A DNA stretch of 64,000 nt from Gemmatimonadota bacterium (GCA_009692205.1 SHZR01000003.1:1-64000), one strand, 5' to 3'; positions 12,260 to 20,404 are shown, counted from the first letter of the stretch. Numbers and translations: made by a program. The notes: a model not told the origin generated them from the letters alone.

Positions 12260-12616
12260 TCAGGCGCCTAGTTGGAGTTCGCGAGCTGCGCTCGCGAGCC
12301 GGCGGTCGAGCGACCATAGCGGCGCGCTCCCGAGCGCCGCGGCTGCCAGCAGGTGCACGTCGATATAGCCCAGCCCGCGCCCCATGAGGCGTCGCGCCTC
12401 GAGGAATGCGAGGACCTCGTCATCTGTCGCGACGGCAGACATGGGCAGCGTGCGCAGCAGCTCCAAAATCGTCGCGCGAATCCCGAGGTTGCCGCACGCC
12501 AGTTCGCCCACGACGAAGGGGTGGCAGAGGACTGCCGCCGACTCCAAGAGCCCGACGAGTCGTCCGTTGCCGCGTCGGAAGTGGTCGATCCAGACCGACG
12601 TGTCGACGAGAATCAA
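12260..12616 (-). CDS. VapC-type PIN-domain ribonuclease toxin
   Basis: A 118-residue PIN domain. The acidic active-site residues appear as ILVDTSVWIDHF (first Asp), GELACG (Glu), and GYIDVHLLAAA with LWSLDRRL (C-terminal Asps). Family members cleave tRNA or rRNA and are held inactive by a cognate antitoxin. Its start codon overlaps the antitoxin stop by 4 nt (ATGA), the standard antitoxin-first arrangement. Confidence 0.9.
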   Translation of the reverse strand: MILVDTSVWIDHFRRGNGRLVGLLESAAVLCHPFVVGELACGNLGIRATILELLRTLPMSAVATDDEVLAFLEARRLMGRGLGYIDVHLLAAAALGSAPLWSLDRRLASAARELQLGA

Positions 12617-12819
12617 GCCGGCTGGCGAGAGGCGGACCGCCTGCGAGGGACGTCAGCGAGCTTGGGCTGCGTGCCACCGAGCGCCGCCAGTCGACGCGCG
12701 CTCTCCCGGGCGATCAACGCCTCGAGTCCGGCGCGGACGAGCGCCGTCTTCTCCTCGATGGACGTGAGTCTCCGCGCTTCGGCGAGCAGCGCATCATCGA
12801 TATGCAGGGTCGTTTTCAT
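12613..12819 (-). CDS. VapB-type antitoxin (ribbon-helix-helix-like)
   Basis: A 68-residue antitoxin starting MKTTLHIDDALLAEA, the usual N-terminus of VapB proteins of the DUF2191 kind, followed by a helical region and a basic, disordered tail (VPRRRSASRQ) that would wrap the toxin. ATG 12819 is chosen because the strand begins there and the inverted repeat spans it; the upstream in-frame ATG would place the operator inside the gene. It overlaps vapC by 4 nt. Confidence 0.85.
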   Translation of the reverse strand: MKTTLHIDDALLAEARRLTSIEEKTALVRAGLEALIARESARRLAALGGTQPKLADVPRRRSASRQPA

Positions 12820-12849
12820 ATGTACGAGTATGGCCAGGTGGTACATATG
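12817..12849 (-). promoter_or_regulatory. VapBC autoregulatory operator
   Basis: CATATGTAC at 12817-12825 and GTACATATG at 12841-12849 form a perfect 9-bp inverted repeat with a 15-bp spacer. The left arm contains the antitoxin start codon. This position and symmetry fit binding by the antitoxin dimers or the VapBC complex. Confidence 0.7.
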
Positions 12850-12862
12850 AAACAAGGCAGCC

Positions 12863-14272
12863 TCAGTCGAGCGCGGGCGGCGTGCCGAACTGCTCCACTG
12901 CGGTGCCGAGGACGCGCTCCGCCGCGAGGGCGACGCCGAGTAGCGCTTCGTCCTGGCCTCCGCGACCGACGAGCTGGAGCCCCACGGGCATGGCGCTGTC
13001 GTCGAGCCCCGCCGGGATGCTGATCGCGGTGAGTCCGAGCACGCTGACCGGGTAATTGGGTCTCAGGATCGCGCGGTTGGCCTGCCCGTAGCGCCCGAGG
13101 TCCGTGAGCTCGGAGACCGGAGGCGCGGTGATGATGTTGGTAGGAAGCGCGAGGACGTCCGCCCGCTCGAAGAGCGTCGGCGCTTCAGCGACGAGCCGGC
13201 GGTGCCTCGCGACCGCCTCGAGGTAGGCCGGATCGTCCAAGGCGAGGGCATGCGCGAGCCGCTCGCGGATGATCGGATTGAGGATTTCGCTCCAGCCGGG
13301 TAGCTCGCGCTCGATGAACGCGCGGAGCTCGGGGCCCGTGATCGGGCGCTGACCGAGCGCGACCTCGAAGCCGTCGTCGAGCAAGTTGCCCTCGACTTCG
13401 AGGAGAACCGCGCCCTGAGCCTCCAGGTCCGCGAGCGCCACGTCGAGCGCCTCCTTGATGTCGGGCTGGCACTCTTCCCAGATGTCGCACCGGGGGACCG
13501 CGATGCGCGTGCCGCGGAGGCGGGTGCGGCCCAGCTGCTCGAGGAGCGCGGCGGGATCTCCCCACGCGGGATCGACGGAGCCGAAGAACCACGCGTAGTC
13601 CTCGACCGTGCGCGCGAGGGCGCCGACGGTGTCTAGCGTGCTGCTGAGTGGCACCACGCCGTCGGTCGGCCACCGGCCCTGGCTCGTGCGCTGGCCGACG
13701 TTCCCGTTGAACCCCGCCGGAATACGAATCGAGCCCCCCGTATCCGACCCGAGCGCGAGCAGGGCGGAACCCTCCCAGAGGCTCACGCCCGCGCCTGCCG
13801 AGGATCCGCCCGGGATCCTGTGCGTGTCGGCATCCCAGGGATTCCACGGCGTGTCCCAGTGCGGGTTGATGCCCACCCCGCCGAAGGCAAGCTCGACGGT
13901 GTGCGTCTTTCCCACGATGCACCCACCCGCAGCGCGCACGCGCGCGACGAGCCAGGCATCCCGCGACCAGCGCTCCGGAAGCTGGCGGGGCGTGCCCGCG
14001 AACGTCGGCAGGCCGTCGACGCCGTAGAGGTCCTTCACCGAGACGGGGACGCCGGCGAGCGGACCCTGCGGTCGACCTGCCGCCAAGTTGCGATCGATCT
14101 CGCGGGCCGCGGCGAGCGCGCCCTCGCCATCGAAGAACTTGTACGCGCGGAGGCGGTCGCCGAAGCGCTCGTGGCGCGCGAGCGCGGCCTGCATCACCTC
14201 CGTGGCGGAGATGCGGCGCTCGCGAAGCGCCGTGGCCAGGGCGGCCAGTGAGAGGCCGAGCGGGTCGCTCAC
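12863..14272 (-). CDS. Amidase signature family hydrolase
   Basis: A 469-residue amidase-signature enzyme. The Ser-cisSer-Lys triad is visible: Lys in PVSVKDLYG, cis-Ser in PGGSSAGAG and nucleophile Ser in SDTGGSIRIPAGF. The start is taken as GTG 14272, which overlaps the YajQ stop and is followed directly by SDPLGLSLAALATALRE, where homologues begin. Members hydrolyse amides, or serve as GatA in the glutamyl-tRNA amidotransferase; with no GatB or GatC nearby, a catabolic or uncharacterised amidase is more likely. It is the last gene of the TerC-led operon. Confidence 0.9.
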   Translation of the reverse strand: MSDPLGLSLAALATALRERRISATEVMQAALARHERFGDRLRAYKFFDGEGALAAAREIDRNLAAGRPQGPLAGVPVSVKDLYGVDGLPTFAGTPRQLPERWSRDAWLVARVRAAGGCIVGKTHTVELAFGGVGINPHWDTPWNPWDADTHRIPGGSSAGAGVSLWEGSALLALGSDTGGSIRIPAGFNGNVGQRTSQGRWPTDGVVPLSSTLDTVGALARTVEDYAWFFGSVDPAWGDPAALLEQLGRTRLRGTRIAVPRCDIWEECQPDIKEALDVALADLEAQGAVLLEVEGNLLDDGFEVALGQRPITGPELRAFIERELPGWSEILNPIIRERLAHALALDDPAYLEAVARHRRLVAEAPTLFERADVLALPTNIITAPPVSELTDLGRYGQANRAILRPNYPVSVLGLTAISIPAGLDDSAMPVGLQLVGRGGQDEALLGVALAAERVLGTAVEQFGTPPALD

Positions 14273-14769
14273 CGGTAGTTGCCGAACTTGAGCTCGACGC
14301 CGTAATCGCGCGCCCTCAGGAAGGCGATGACCTCCTGGAGTTCGTCGCGCGAGGGGGAGGTGGCGCGGAGCTCCTCGCCCTGGATCTGAACCTGCACCTT
14401 CTTGAAGCCGCCTTCCTTGATCTCCCTCACGATCTTCTTGGCCGTCTCTTGGTCGATGCCGTTCTTGAGCCCGAGCGTCTGGCGGGCACGACCCAGTCCG
14501 CCGACCTCCATCTTGCCTTCGTCGATGTTCTTCAGCGGAACCTGACGGCGGCTGAGCTTCTCTCGCACAATGCCCAAGAGCTGCTTGAGTCGGAATTCGT
14601 CGTCGGCATCGAGTTTGATCGCGAGAGCCGCGCGGTCCAGCTCGATGGTGCACTTCGTGCCCTTGAAGTCGTAGCGCGTCTGCGACTCTTTGATCGCCTG
14701 GTTGACGGCGTTGTCGACCTCTTGGAGGTCGACGCCGGTCGAGATGTCGAAAGACTCTTTCGCCGCCAT
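14269..14769 (-). CDS. yajQ: YajQ family nucleotide-binding protein (DUF520)
   Basis: A 166-residue protein, the normal length for YajQ. Conserved segments are FDISTGVDLQEVDNAVNQA, TRYDFKGTK, KLDADDEFRLKQL, GIDQETAKKIVREIKE and KKVQVQIQGEELR. The fold has two ferredoxin-like domains. A homologue in Xanthomonas binds cyclic di-GMP and acts as a transcription co-regulator; a nucleotide- or RNA-binding role elsewhere is suspected. It lies between the anchor protein gene (66-bp gap) and the amidase (overlap). Confidence 0.95.
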   Translation of the reverse strand: MAAKESFDISTGVDLQEVDNAVNQAIKESQTRYDFKGTKCTIELDRAALAIKLDADDEFRLKQLLGIVREKLSRRQVPLKNIDEGKMEVGGLGRARQTLGLKNGIDQETAKKIVREIKEGGFKKVQVQIQGEELRATSPSRDELQEVIAFLRARDYGVELKFGNYR

Positions 14770-14835: not shown

Positions 14836-15471
14836 CTAGAACTCCGCCCGGAACGCCCCCGGCTCGGGCGTCTCGCGGATCTCCCGCTCGACGGCGGGCG
14901 CGTCCTCGCGGAACTCGGTCGATCCGCTGAAGAAGCCCGCGGCGTGCAGCGTCACGGTCACGGTGTCCGTGCCCTCGTTCAGCCAGTACCAGCCGTGGAT
15001 TCCGGGGAAGGGCGCGAGGTAGCTGCCGTGGCGGAAGAGCGTCTGCTCGACGACCTCGAAGAACTCGGCGGTGCCGGCCGGGGCGCCGTCGGCCTCGCTG
15101 TGCATCTCGGAGCGGACCCAGCCGCTCGCGGTCCACGAGTAGATCATCGCCCGACCCGTCTCGAGCCGGTACTTGTACTCGACGAACCCGCCGGGCTCGA
15201 GCGCGAACGTCCGCGTGTCCGTGCGGTAGCTGCTCCCGTGGGCGATGAGCCCGTCTTCGCGCGCGGGGATCTCGCCGCCAGGAGGACCGGACAGGACGAC
15301 CAGGCCGAGCGCGTCACCCGTGCCGAGCGGATCAATGTCGTACTCGGCAGGCAGCACGACCGTGACGAGCACGATGCCGGCCACGGCGAGCGCCGCGAGC
15401 GTCGAGATCACGAGCTTCGCCTTCGACGGAGCGGGTGGCAGGGGCCTCTCCGACGCGGCGGGCGCGCTCAC
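14836..15471 (-). CDS. Membrane-anchored extracytoplasmic protein encoded next to HupE
   Basis: A 211-residue protein with a short cytoplasmic N-terminus, one membrane helix (LAALAVAGIVLVTVVLP) and a soluble extracytoplasmic domain rich in aromatic residues (VEYKYRLE, MIYSWTASGWV, HGWYWLNEG, TVTVTLHAAGFF). It resembles the uncharacterised 'transmembrane anchor' proteins found next to HupE/UreJ genes. The start is GTG 15471, only 7 bp after the HupE stop, so they are co-translated. The conserved adjacency suggests a partner of the HupE transporter; no enzymatic motif is seen. Confidence 0.75.
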   Translation of the reverse strand: MSAPAASERPLPPAPSKAKLVISTLAALAVAGIVLVTVVLPAEYDIDPLGTGDALGLVVLSGPPGGEIPAREDGLIAHGSSYRTDTRTFALEPGGFVEYKYRLETGRAMIYSWTASGWVRSEMHSEADGAPAGTAEFFEVVEQTLFRHGSYLAPFPGIHGWYWLNEGTDTVTVTLHAAGFFSGSTEFREDAPAVEREIRETPEPGAFRAEF

Positions 15472-15478
15472 GAGCGCC

Positions 15479-16174
15479 TCACGGGGCGCTCACGAGATAC
15501 CCGACGAGCTGGTACCCCATGAGCGTGAAGCCGCCTGCCATCAGGAGCGTGTTGGCGACGTGGGCGTGCCGAAGGAAGCCTTCTCGGGTGCGCCAGTAGG
15601 CGAGCGCGATGAGGACTCCGGTGAGCGCGAACATCTGCCCGAGCTCCACGCCGACGTTGAAGCTCAGCATGTTGGTGAGGAGGCCGTCGTCGGAGAGCGT
15701 GTACTCCTGCAGCGTGGTCGCTAAGCCGAATCCGTGGAAGAGCCCGAACCCGAGCACCGCGAGACGCGTGTTCGGCTGGAATCCGAGGAAGCGGCGGAAG
15801 CCGTCCATATTGTCGAAGGCCTTGTAGACGACGGAGAGCCCGATGATCGCGTCGATCAAGAACGGGTTCGCCCGAACTCCCCACATCACTCCGGCCAGAA
15901 GCGTGACGCTGTGGCCAAGGGTGAAGAGGCTTACGTAGAGAACGACGTCCCGCAGGCGGTAGAGGAAGAAGAGCACGCCGACGAGGAACAGCAGGTGGTC
16001 GTAGCCGGTGAACATGTGCTTCGCGCCGAGATACAGGAACGGCCCGATCGCAGGACCACGGTTCGAGAGGAAGAACGCGGCGTCGCCCTGCGCCACCCCG
16101 TGCGCGGCGAGCGGCTCCGCGAGGAACGCCACGCCCAGCCCGAGGAGGCCGAGGATGCGGCCGCGTGCGCGCAT
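15479..16174 (-). CDS. HupE/UreJ family membrane protein
   Basis: A 231-residue integral membrane protein with about seven hydrophobic helices. Motifs expected for HupE/UreJ are present: KHMFTGYDHLLFLVGVLFFL, FTLGHSVTLL, HGFGLAT and NVGVELGQM. The conserved His/Asp in TGYDH and TLGHS are metal-ligand candidates. Characterised HupE/UreJ proteins are Ni2+ or Co2+ permeases. Here the gene shares one base (TGATG) with the terC stop and lies under a Mn2+-type riboswitch, so manganese or another divalent ion is a reasonable alternative substrate. Confidence 0.88.
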   Translation of the reverse strand: MRARGRILGLLGLGVAFLAEPLAAHGVAQGDAAFFLSNRGPAIGPFLYLGAKHMFTGYDHLLFLVGVLFFLYRLRDVVLYVSLFTLGHSVTLLAGVMWGVRANPFLIDAIIGLSVVYKAFDNMDGFRRFLGFQPNTRLAVLGFGLFHGFGLATTLQEYTLSDDGLLTNMLSFNVGVELGQMFALTGVLIALAYWRTREGFLRHAHVANTLLMAGGFTLMGYQLVGYLVSAP

Positions 16175-17136
16175 CAGTCTCCCGACGACTCGTCCGCCGA
16201 GGCGCCCGTCACCTTCTGCTGCGGGAACAGGAGCGACGCGGCGACGGAGAGGCTGAGGATGCCCGCCACGATTCCCAGAGACGCGCCGATCGGAACTTCG
16301 ATGTGGAAGTATGTGATCAGCATCTTCACGCCCACGAACGAGAGCACGACGGCAAGCCCGAGCTTCAAGTAGTGGAACTTGTCGATCACGCCGGCCAGGA
16401 GGAAATACATCGAGCGTAGGCCGAGGATCGCGAAGACATTGGAGGTGAAGACCAGGAAGGGATCGCGGGTAACGGCGAAGATGGCCGGGATCGAGTCGAT
16501 GGCGAACACGAGGTCCGTGGTCTCGACCATCACCAGCACCACGAACAGCGGGGTGGCAAGCCGGCGGTGCCGCGTGCCCCAGAACGCGTGGGTGAAGAAG
16601 CGCTGGCCGTCGTAGTTCGGCGCGAGGGGCACGACCTTGCGGATGAGCTTGAGGACCGGGTTGTGCTCCGGATGGACCTCGAGATCATCGGACCTCGCCA
16701 TCTTGATGCCGGTGAAGATGAGGAACGCGCCGAACACGTAGATGATCCAGTGGAACCGCTCGATGAGCAGCCATCCGGCTGCGATCATCCCGCCGCGCAT
16801 GAACAGCGCGCCGAAGATCCCCCAGAAGAGCACGCGGTGCTGAAACGCCGCGGGGACCTTGAAGTATTTGAAGATCAGGATGAAGACGAAGATGTTGTCG
16901 ACGGAGAGCGCGAGCTCGATCAGGTAGCCCGCCGTGAACTCGAGTCCCGCTTGCGGACCGCGCGCGTAGAAGATCCACGCATTGAAGGCCGCGGCGACCA
17001 AGACCACCACGAGACACCAACGGGCGGCTTCCTTGACCGTAGTGACGCGGGAATGGCGGTTCAGGACCCCGAGGTCGATGGCCAGCATGCCAAGGATGAG
17101 GCAAGAGAATCCCACCCAGAGCCACAGTTGGGTCAT
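16174..17136 (-). CDS. TerC/Alx family membrane protein, probable manganese exporter
   Basis: A 320-residue protein with about nine membrane helices. TerC hallmarks are ELALSVDNIFVFILIFKYF and ETTDLVFAIDSIPAIFAV; the Asp residues in SVDN and AIDS are the conserved transport-site acids. Alx/TerC proteins export Mn2+, directly or to load exoenzymes. ATG 17136 lies 30 bp after the poly-U tract of a riboswitch-controlled terminator. It heads an operon with HupE/UreJ, the anchor protein, YajQ and the amidase, and is probably switched on by excess manganese. Confidence 0.93.
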   Translation of the reverse strand: MTQLWLWVGFSCLILGMLAIDLGVLNRHSRVTTVKEAARWCLVVVLVAAAFNAWIFYARGPQAGLEFTAGYLIELALSVDNIFVFILIFKYFKVPAAFQHRVLFWGIFGALFMRGGMIAAGWLLIERFHWIIYVFGAFLIFTGIKMARSDDLEVHPEHNPVLKLIRKVVPLAPNYDGQRFFTHAFWGTRHRRLATPLFVVLVMVETTDLVFAIDSIPAIFAVTRDPFLVFTSNVFAILGLRSMYFLLAGVIDKFHYLKLGLAVVLSFVGVKMLITYFHIEVPIGASLGIVAGILSLSVAASLLFPQQKVTGASADESSGD

Positions 17137-17166
17137 GTCGCGCTTCTTCCTGGAGCGGTGACGACA

Positions 17167-17216
17167 AAAAAAGCGAGACCCCCGCCCGGAGCATGGCTCC
17201 AGGCGAAGGTCTCGCC
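17167..17216 (-). terminator. Riboswitch-controlled intrinsic terminator upstream of terC
   Basis: On the minus strand GCGAGACC (17216-17209) pairs with GGTCTCGC (17181-17174) and is followed by seven Us (17173-17167). A second inner stem (GGAGC/GCTCC) extends the hairpin. GCGAGACC belongs to the aptamer's conserved 3' block, so ligand binding and terminator formation exclude each other. Confidence 0.85.
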
Positions 17217-17341
17217 ATGACGAGCGGGGCCGTTCTGCGGCGCCCCTCTGATCCCGTCCGGACCGTGCGTCCCGCGGCCTCAGCCGCGTAACACAGTGTT
17301 GACGATCCGGACACCGAACTGCGTTCGGTAGGCTACTCCCC
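17201..17341 (-). promoter_or_regulatory. yybP-ykoY (Mn2+) riboswitch aptamer
   Basis: Read leftward from 17341 the leader begins GGGGAGTAGCC, continues with ATCGTCAACAC at about 17308-17298 inside a branched structure with G+C-rich stems (GCGGCTGAGGCCGC), and closes with GGCGAGACCTTCGCC at about 17218-17204. These are the three conserved sequence blocks of the yybP-ykoY aptamer. Known members bind Mn2+ and commonly precede TerC/Alx, MntP or P-type ATPase genes, as here. The distal conserved block also forms one arm of a terminator, giving a clear on-switch mechanism. Confidence 0.85.
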
Positions 17342-17444
17342 TTCTGCTTCGAACCTGGCGCGCGGGCGGAGTGCCGTCAATGATGCGGGGCAGCGAACGC
17401 GAAGGAGCGGTCCCAGCCTACGGCCCTTGGCCTCGGAGTATGTG

Positions 17445-18764
17445 ATGTCCGACGAGCGGAAACGCATGCCGCTGCACAAGAAGATCCTGTTGGGACTCGT
17501 CGTCGGCGCGGGCGCCGGACTCCTCGTCAACGCAGGGCTCGGGCCCGCGGATGCTCGCGCGATTTGGGTCATGCGCAACGTCACGGAGCCGGTCGGCCAG
17601 GTCTTCCTCAGGCTGCTGCTGATGGTGGTCGTGCCGCTCGTGTTCTCCTCACTCGTCGTGGGCGTGGCGGGCATCGGCAACATCCGTCAGCTGGGCAGGG
17701 TGGGCTTCAAGTGTCTCGCCTACACGGTCGTCCTGTCGGCGATCTCGGTGGCGGTGGGGCTCACGGTCGTGAACGTCATCCGACCGGGTGAGCGTATCTC
17801 GCCCGAGACCGCGGCGGCGATCGAGGCGCGCTACGGCAGCGACGCGGCCGCGCGAGTCCAAGCGGCCGCCCCGCCCGCCACCGTGAGCGTCGGCACCCGC
17901 ATCGTGGAGACGCTCATCCCGTCCAATCCCATCGCGGCGGTCGCGGCCGCGACGCCCAACCTGCTGCACCTCATGTTCTTCGGGCTCGTGCTGGGCATCG
18001 CGACGACCCTGGTGCCGCCGTCGACCGCGGCGCCGTTCCTGGGCTTTCTCGAGGGGCTCTATGCGGTGTCCGCGAAGATCATCGACGGCGTGATGGGCAT
18101 CGCGCCGTACGCGGTCGCCTGCTTGCTCTTCACGAGCATGGCGAGCTTCGGGCTCGACTTGCTCGGGGCACTCGCGTGGTACGTCGCAACGGTGCTGCTC
18201 GCACTCGCGATCCACATGTTCGGCGTATACTCGCTCGCGGTCGCCCTGCTGGCGAGGATCTCGCCGGTCGAGTTCTTCCGCCGCATCAGGACGGCGATGC
18301 TCACGGCGTTCTCGACGTCTTCGTCCGCGGCCACGCTCTCCACGGCGCTACGGGTCTCAGAGGAGAACCTGAAGATTCCGCGTGAGATCAATTCGTTCGT
18401 GCTGACCGTGGGCGCGACCGCGAACCAGAACGGGACGGCGCTCTACGAAGGCGTGACGGTGATCTTCCTCGCGCAGGTCGCAGGAGTCGACCTCTCGCTG
18501 GGTGGGCAGCTCGGCGTGGCGTACCTCGCGATCCTGGGCGGCATCGGGACGGCGGGCGTGCCCTCGGGATCGATCCCGTTCGTGATTCTGATCCTGATCT
18601 CGATCGGCGTCGACCCGTCGTTGATCGCGATCATCATTGGCGTCGATCGCATTCTCGACATGTGCCGCACGACGCTCAACGTCACGGGTGACATCGCGGC
18701 CGCCGCATATGTCGCTCGGTCCGAGGGGTATCCGCTGCTAGAAGAGGGCGAGGCTGCGGCGTAG
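17445..18764 (+). CDS. SDF-family dicarboxylate/amino acid:cation symporter
   Basis: A 439-residue GltPh-type transporter. Seen: hydrophobic helices throughout, the serine-rich hairpin STSSSAATLSTALR, the unwound TM7 segment GATANQNGTALYEG, re-entrant loop 2 (GGIGTAGVPSG) and TM8 (IIGVDRILDMCRTTLNVTGD) whose Asp/Arg/Thr/Asn residues bind substrate and cation. ATG 17445 is used because GGAG lies 6 nt upstream. It is divergent from terC. A second family member is encoded at 21.9-23.2 kb; the RILDMCRTTLNV segment looks more like the acidic or neutral amino-acid branch than DctA. Confidence 0.92.
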   Translation: MSDERKRMPLHKKILLGLVVGAGAGLLVNAGLGPADARAIWVMRNVTEPVGQVFLRLLLMVVVPLVFSSLVVGVAGIGNIRQLGRVGFKCLAYTVVLSAISVAVGLTVVNVIRPGERISPETAAAIEARYGSDAAARVQAAAPPATVSVGTRIVETLIPSNPIAAVAAATPNLLHLMFFGLVLGIATTLVPPSTAAPFLGFLEGLYAVSAKIIDGVMGIAPYAVACLLFTSMASFGLDLLGALAWYVATVLLALAIHMFGVYSLAVALLARISPVEFFRRIRTAMLTAFSTSSSAATLSTALRVSEENLKIPREINSFVLTVGATANQNGTALYEGVTVIFLAQVAGVDLSLGGQLGVAYLAILGGIGTAGVPSGSIPFVILILISIGVDPSLIAIIIGVDRILDMCRTTLNVTGDIAAAAYVARSEGYPLLEEGEAAA

Positions 18765-19701: not shown

Positions 19702-20160
19702 TCAGGTCCCCGAAGGGGATTTCACGCTCCCCGACGACTTCGCGGACCGCCGCGGCCGCCCACCCTTCAGTCCATTGAGTCGGGACGCGCGCGCCTTCGC
19801 TGGGCTCCTCACCTGACCCATTAGTCGTGGCGCCCATTCCCTGAGGTTCAGAGACTCTACGACGAGTCCGGTGAGTGATGCGTGGACATCCAGCTCATCC
19901 CAATGAAGCCCATCGCCGCTCGGCGAAATCTCGACACGGCCTAGGTCCGCGGCCGCTGCTCCCTCCAATCCGGCCACTCGTTCCGGCGGAAAACAGAAGG
20001 TGAACCCACTGCACAGTTCCACGACGACGAGTCCCCTTCGAACATCGTACGTCACGGCTTGGGCGCGTGGCTCAATTCTGTCCGCCTCCCGAGACTCACG
20101 AATCGCCGCTTCATTCTGACGCTCGAACTCCGCGTCGTCGCGACGTGCTCCCTTAGCCAT
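19702..20160 (-). CDS. DUF2442 domain protein (putative antitoxin partner of DUF4160)
   Basis: A 152-residue protein. The central part, AVTYDVRRGLVVVELCSGFTFCFPPERV followed by AADLGRVEISPSGDGLHWDELDVHASLTGL, matches the DUF2442 pattern; the C-terminus is basic (RLNGLKGGRPRRS). DUF2442 genes often follow DUF4160 genes and the pair is predicted to be a toxin-antitoxin module. ATG 20160 (MAKGARRDD) overlaps the DUF4160 stop by 8 nt and is preferred over an upstream in-frame start. Confidence 0.8.
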   Translation of the reverse strand: MAKGARRDDAEFERQNEAAIRESREADRIEPRAQAVTYDVRRGLVVVELCSGFTFCFPPERVAGLEGAAAADLGRVEISPSGDGLHWDELDVHASLTGLVVESLNLREWAPRLMGQVRSPAKARASRLNGLKGGRPRRSAKSSGSVKSPSGT

Positions 20161-20404
20161 GAATCCGCCTCCATTCCTCGAGGAAACGGCGCTGGTACGC
20201 CTGAACAATCCGAAGTGCTTCTCGCGCATCCGCGGCGCCCATATGATGGTTCAGCCACAGGGTCGGCATCGTCTTCTCACCCCCGAGGCGGACGACCACT
20301 TCACCACCGCCGATGCACTCCACGTGAACGTGCGGTGGCTGGTGTTCCCGCGGTGGTGCGTACACGTACACACGGAAGCCAGCCTCGTCGTGCACCCTGA
20401 CCAT
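20153..20404 (-). CDS. DUF4160 domain protein (putative toxin-like partner)
   Basis: An 83-residue protein with the DUF4160 signature: FRVYVYAPPREHQPPHVHVE, then GEVVVRLGG and a helical C-terminus (AREALRIVQAYQRRFLEEW). The biochemical function is unknown. It is the first gene of a leftward cluster with DUF2442, HD and unknown genes. A near-palindromic operator lies 9 bp upstream, the arrangement expected for an autoregulated module. Confidence 0.85.
   Translation of the reverse strand: MVRVHDEAGFRVYVYAPPREHQPPHVHVECIGGGEVVVRLGGEKTMPTLWLNHHMGAADAREALRIVQAYQRRFLEEWRRIHG

Follow-up and report, generated by a model that had tools for sequence, protein, structure and literature searches.

Does a HupE/UreJ-like permease encoded behind a manganese riboswitch and a terC gene belong to a HupE branch with a role in manganese, as the original prediction suggested? 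The locus lies on the minus strand of a 64,000-nt stretch of an uncultured Gemmatimonadota bacterium (GCA_009692205.1 SHZR01000003.1:1-64000), hereafter the window. Our best explanation, with a probability of about 0.78, is that a Mn2+ transcriptional ON-riboswitch of the yybP-ykoY class governs a terC-hupE-anchor operon. The features of the locus are:

17204-17346, minus strand: predicted yybP-ykoY (Mn2+) riboswitch aptamer, a four-way junction with P1.1 (GAAGG/CCUUC), P1.2 (GCC/GGC), P2, P3 and P4; 92.3 bits with model R1 (see below)
17331-17340, minus strand: conserved L1 block GGGGAGUAGC, with GGGAGUAG invariant across 19 leaders
17297-17304, minus strand: conserved L3 block CGUCAACA, whose last A is the counterpart of the Mn-sensing adenosine (A48 in X. 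oryzae; role, PMC6754395)
17208-17215, minus strand: GCGAGACC block, on the 3' side of the junction in the aptamer and also within the terminator 5' arm
17166-17216, minus strand: intrinsic terminator, with a 21-bp stem (17216-17172), a 3-nt loop and then U7; its 5' arm takes in the 3' strand of P1.2 and that of P1.1
16174-17136, minus strand: terC/alx family membrane protein of 320 aa, predicted Mn2+ exporter (PF03741, TIGR03718, identity with E. coli Alx)
15479-16174, minus strand: hupE-like membrane permease of 231 aa (PF13795, HupE_UreJ_2), in TGATG overlap with terC
16100-16102, minus strand: His25 codon of hupE; cleavage of the predicted signal peptide, presumed at A24|H25, would leave this His at the mature N-terminus; the residue is kept through a 79-row alignment
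14836-15471, minus strand: anchor protein of 211 aa, with a TM helix (17-44) and a GOLD/p24-like beta-sandwich (81-181), presumably periplasmic; without a Pfam family

The three conserved yybP-ykoY blocks named in the original prediction are all present (GGGGAGUAGC at 17340-17331, CGUCAACA at 17304-17297, GCGAGACC at 17215-17208), and the last of them indeed forms part of a hairpin arm followed by U7, inside the terminator stem. The covariance-model search that it proposed gave a match to the aptamer (RF00080, E 0.0018), but the 19.7 bits of this focused search are below the gathering score of 45, an annotation cut-off and no biochemical feature, and the aptamer is therefore uncalled at the default threshold; the Rfam scan of the entire 64-kb window at the gathering threshold reported no family. 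Matches to rnk_pseudo, sodF and BASRCI414 (E 3.7-6.3) were regarded as chance. Folded alone, the aptamer sequence adopted the yybP-ykoY four-way junction (-72.0 kcal/mol, z -4.2), and the terminator hairpin reached -42.4 kcal/mol (z -8.5). The metal-site blocks L1 (GGGGAGUAG) and L3 (CGUCAA.A), including the sensing adenosine, are present in the aptamer.

The terC genes of the same order were gathered by protein search, and the same motif was found approximately 200-250 bases 5' of most of the closest terC relatives. In the alignment of 19 homologous leaders, GGGAGUAG was invariant, and CGUCAA and GCGAGACC were mostly invariant or nearly so. Two-sided changes occurred at 19 of the 27 pairs compared to 6.2 in shuffles, 96.1% of the cells were paired in the consensus structure (85.6% in shuffles) and none of the 500 shuffles matched the observed value on any of five measures; these counts rest on related sequences and on a structure derived from the same sequences, and the external check against E. 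coli was therefore decisive. The covariation signal was lost when the partner was shifted by one base, and P1.1 itself covaries (GAAGG/CCUUC to CGUGG/CCACG, AGUGG/CCACU and GAGAG/CUUUC). Model R1, built from the 19 homologous leaders without any E. coli sequence, was compared with 10 kb of E. coli K-12 and matched directly 5' of alx (37.4 bits, E 8e-8) and directly 5' of mntP (35.2 bits, E 3e-7), both of them annotated Mn2+ exporters with known riboswitches. Judged on sequence and covariation, the segment 17346-17204 is almost certainly a Mn2+-class yybP-ykoY aptamer, and the riboswitch and TerC together would be a sound addition to the known class. A plain terminator or attenuator hairpin resembling a riboswitch by chance would agree with the RF00080 score under the curated threshold, but it is contradicted by the covariation of the 19 leaders and by the R1 matches at E. 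coli alx and mntP, and is extremely improbable.

The ligand is assigned here by homology and relatives of the HupE protein occur in Ni/Co clusters, both of which would favour an aptamer sensing another divalent metal (Cd2+, Ni2+ or Co2+), in keeping with the HupE context elsewhere. Against this, L1, L3 and the Mn-sensing adenosine are all conserved, most of the riboswitch relatives stand before terC or htpX without HupE, and no Ni/Co riboswitch family was listed in the Rfam searches of the window and the leader; a ligand other than Mn2+ is accordingly improbable.

At -106.9 kcal/mol, the minimum-energy fold of the full leader was the terminator state, which keeps P2-P4 but gives up P1.1 and P1.2; the fold forced into the aptamer came to -89.8 kcal/mol. 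Both P1.1 and P1.2 contribute their 3' strands to the terminator 5' arm (GGCGAGACCUUCGCC...), and this overlap is retained in most of the 19 homologous leaders. In L. lactis, P1.1 is stabilised by Mn2+ and the overlapping terminator is prevented (PMC11087558, PMC6754395); in X. oryzae, A48 is the Mn-contacting adenosine (PMC6754395). The original prediction had held that read-through in the Mn2+-bound state can be read directly from the DNA: the exclusion between P1.1 and the terminator is visible in the mutually exclusive folds, whereas Mn2+ as the ligand, and read-through as the response to it, are inferred by homology from the L. lactis precedent and the shared anatomy. At low Mn2+, P1.1 and P1.2 would fail to hold, their 3' strand GGCGAGACCUUC would enter the 21-bp terminator and transcription would stop before terC; at high Mn2+, the L1-L3 site would bind Mn2+, stabilising P1.1, the terminator would not form and the operon would be transcribed.

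TerC was named as an expected target of the switch, and it proved to be of a known and ordinary target class. The protein matched PF03741 (184.5 bits) and TIGR03718 (R_switched_Alx, 409 bits, curated cut-off 246.4), and is 49% identical to E. coli Alx. TerC proteins export Mn (PMC13274385; precedents are Alx and V. parahaemolyticus TerC), and in B. subtilis they help to metalate exported enzymes (PMC10550928). By homology, the TerC/Alx protein of the window would export Mn2+, and the riboswitch very probably turns on a Mn exporter gene at high Mn. The genome contains three TerC genes and one Nramp-family gene.

The presence of this riboswitch class was surveyed with R1 in Gemmatimonadota, where it was found in 77 of 395 genomes (90 survey loci, L146-L235, 88 of them oriented). 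The first recognised gene after the riboswitch was htpX, encoding a M48 membrane protease, in 46 of the 88 oriented loci (17 of these htpX-terC); in 28 it was terC, and seven had a Band 7/SPFH lipoprotein-like gene in that position. In B. subtilis, HtpX and a TerC protein co-purify (PMC10550928), and the literature search found no paper tying htpX to a Mn riboswitch; this association may be more novel than the terC-hupE-anchor finding. The riboswitches of L083, L085, L087, L156, L163 and others scored below the Rfam gathering score or were unreported even at E 0.1, and standard annotation would therefore miss them. Many Mn riboswitches of Gemmatimonadota thus tend to escape the Rfam default, and a part of the Mn regulon stays hidden in an abundant and mostly uncultured phylum. 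An aptamer-like leader before terC in L104 (2444-2557, minus strand) has CGUCAAUCC as its L3 and is without the Mn2+-contacting adenosine; it is possibly a variant in specificity or a decayed copy.

The hupE gene was predicted to be coupled to terC, and in the window the two genes do overlap by one base (TGATG). Gene order and tight spacing are the same in an independent congener genome (G112, locus L002), where the terC overlap is absent and the likely hupE start lies approximately 4 bases past the terC stop. The terC, hupE and anchor genes are under purifying selection (dN/dS 0.10-0.21 between the two genomes, at about 82% nucleotide identity). From the operon anatomy in these two genomes, Mn-dependent co-expression of HupE and the anchor is likely. 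No promoter was recognised at the locus. The next gene on the same strand, of the YajQ family (14269-14769), was treated as separate from the operon.

Other genes were noted around the locus. A gene for a SDF family sodium:dicarboxylate symporter (17427-18764) diverges from the riboswitch, in the same arrangement as in G112, and in E. coli, too, a gene for a sodium symporter (sstT) comes after alx; a shared alx-sstT neighbourhood was suspected and rejected, as the SDF gene gave no alignment with the part of E. coli sstT that was compared. An ORF at 18795-19373 matches the Tis1 immunity protein (PF24154), with DUF2442 and DUF4160 genes nearby on the same strand (19702-20404), and a PIN-domain toxin-like gene (12260-12855) is preceded on its strand by a small ORF, perhaps the matching antitoxin.

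The HupE/UreJ designation of the second gene product held for HupE_UreJ_2 (PF13795, 180.7 bits, gathering 24.5) and failed for the classical HupE_UreJ family, to which no match was reported (Pfam, NCBIfam). Directly after the predicted signal peptide stands a conserved His (..A|HG, cleavage judged by eye); this residue, His25, would be the mature N-terminus. Approximately 20 residues separate His25 from the PF13795 domain, a fused Ang beta-sandwich is absent, and the predicted model (pLDDT 86.7) is all-helical; no trustworthy match to this model was found among PDB structures (best Foldseek E 0.46; best VIA-align Z 8.2, a helical protein), nor did the sequence search of solved structures find a relative of HupE or of the anchor. 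The anchor was described in the original prediction as a conserved membrane-anchored protein, in agreement with its predicted TM helix and with the residues invariant in the alignment of its homologues (E98, K100, H124, H159). It has no Pfam or NCBIfam match; its predicted model (pLDDT 90.7) consists of the TM helix and a beta-sandwich, and residues 81-181 resemble the TMED1 GOLD domain (Z 11.2, rmsd 1.9 over 94 residues), a likeness in fold only.

The scan of species-representative genomes gave 80 related HupE loci in Gemmatimonadota, Acidobacteriota and Pseudomonadota. A homologue of the anchor gene is near hupE in 79 of the 80, usually directly downstream, and the exception (L009) ends soon after hupE. 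TerC adjoins the pair in only one locus, that of the congener, and R1 detected no credible Mn riboswitch at the related loci besides it. No riboswitch of any kind was found in the 74 loci scanned with Rfam at the gathering threshold, a scan that is not very sensitive given the Rfam scores of Gemmatimonadota members; some loci (e.g. L013, L014) have little upstream DNA, which makes the absence there weak. The pair often adjoins metal-efflux genes of the Czc/Ncc/Nre type: the nearest upstream neighbour matches ACR_tran in 10 of 72 loci, clustering placed CzcA/CusA-type RND pumps beside the pair in 15 loci, DUF6488 is the downstream neighbour in 7 of 65, and on plasmids the pair adjoins ncc genes, metal-sensing repressors, MFS and chromate genes. 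In Sphingobium sp. ba1, a HupE/UreJ gene in a RND/NreB cluster is the most Ni-induced gene of the strain (PMC5557971); going by its description, this gene is a presumed orthologue of the hupE of the window. A literature search for HupE together with yybP-ykoY yielded a single review, on cobalt.

Fifteen polar residues of HupE are more than 97% conserved (H25, K52, H53, D59, H60, H88, D108, K118, N122, H147, N168, N173, E177, Q180, N208), and no change at the conserved polar residues was found in the two Mn-controlled copies (79-row alignment). All 15 being kept, there is no clear sign of altered metal specificity, and metal choice is unreadable from the conserved residues of HupE alone. Six positions are common to the two Mn-controlled copies and rare elsewhere; the only possible ligands among them are H205 and E20, and E20 lies in the signal peptide. 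The window and L002 copies came out as sisters in the HupE tree, beside the remaining Gemmatimonadota copies, a position that fits a relocated resident gene pair rather than a recent import.

These observations bear on two alternatives. In other Gemmatimonadota, close homologues of the pair have diverse gene neighbours, most of them unconnected with metals, which would suit a passenger set behind terC by rearrangement, with a function unlinked to Mn; this is doubtful, as gene order and tight spacing have been kept at about 82% nucleotide identity and dN/dS is low in all three genes. The second alternative, unlikely to a similar degree, is that HupE and the anchor themselves form a Mn transport or handling system, with Mn as the true substrate of the HupE branch. 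In its favour, two genomes hold the pair in a compact operon, under purifying selection, together with a Mn riboswitch and a homologue of a Mn exporter; also in its favour is the search for NiFe hydrogenase and urease, neither of which was matched in the 97.9% complete genome although the controls were detected, so the classical Ni use of HupE is missing in this genome (in the search for Ni-SOD no control was matched). Against it, a pair with identical conserved polar residues adjoins Ni/Co/Cd/Zn genes elsewhere, 79 of the 80 related loci are without a detected Mn riboswitch or TerC, the gene most induced by Ni in Sphingobium sp. ba1 is HupE/UreJ-like (PMC5557971), and domains fused to PF13795 bind Cu and Ni, one of them being slightly destabilised by Mn (PMC12537917).

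We prefer to see in the pair a permease for divalent metals, of Ni/Co type or broad in specificity, whose co-induction under Mn excess would serve to rebalance envelope metals; we give this reading about an even chance, and it is the least certain step of the explanation. HupE and the anchor would constitute an old membrane module of two genes for metal handling: the permease, of PF13795, has a His at its predicted mature N-terminus, and its partner is a beta-sandwich tethered to the membrane. Among the loci searched, only this genus would have placed the module under Mn2+ control. With 79 of 80 loci lacking TerC and the Mn riboswitch, the operon present in two genomes only and the polar residues unchanged, Mn control of the pair thus looks like lineage-specific recruitment. 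The suggestion of a manganese role for this HupE branch was not upheld: the Mn riboswitch and TerC stand beside the pair in 1 of the 80 related loci, and we found no evidence for a Mn-specific branch. Since close relatives carry the pair without the riboswitch, nature here allows the same transporter to be compared under two modes of control. Should Mn prove to be the metal on which HupE and the anchor act, a function would be assigned to a widespread module of two genes, of which the anchor gene is still without a family model.

Compared to the transcriptional ON yybP-ykoY riboswitch of L. lactis (RF00080; PMC11087558, PMC6754395), the window shares the four-way junction, the L1/L3 metal-site blocks, the P1.1 3' strand common to the terminator and, by homology, read-through as the outcome of Mn binding, and differs in a long P3 insert and a divergent P4; the Gemmatimonadota members tested score under the Rfam cut-off. 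The E. coli alx leader is matched by R1, whereas the window leader has a clear intrinsic terminator sharing a strand with the aptamer, and its locus has hupE and the anchor gene behind terC. PF13795 proteins with an N-terminal His and fused beta-sandwich 'anglerase' domains (Ang-1/Ang-2) that bind Cu and Ni have been described, with Mn slightly destabilising one of the domains (PMC12537917). The HupE of the window shares with them the PF13795 membrane domain and the His right after the predicted signal peptide, but it has no fused periplasmic domain; a beta-sandwich is predicted instead in the separate, membrane-anchored product of the adjacent gene. A more speculative reading, which we regard as rather unlikely, is that HupE and the anchor form a split anglerase, in which a tethered GOLD-like domain would pass metal to or from a permease with a bare N-terminal His. 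The metal would be set by context, and in this genus the pair would join TerC in an envelope circuit for manganese that Mn2+ induces, which would make this a HupE under riboswitch control. A second PF13795 gene of the same genome (L237, G000:C22:12345-12794) has a long N-terminal extracytoplasmic part with a His after the signal peptide (QA|HEIPAD) and resembles the fused anglerase architecture. The pair of HupE/UreJ and 'transmembrane anchor protein' genes is also found in Ncc/Czc/Nre-type metal-resistance clusters on Pseudomonadota plasmids, with the same order and approximately 60% HupE identity; there it adjoins RND efflux, metal-sensing repressor and MFS genes, whereas in the window it stands with a Mn riboswitch and TerC.
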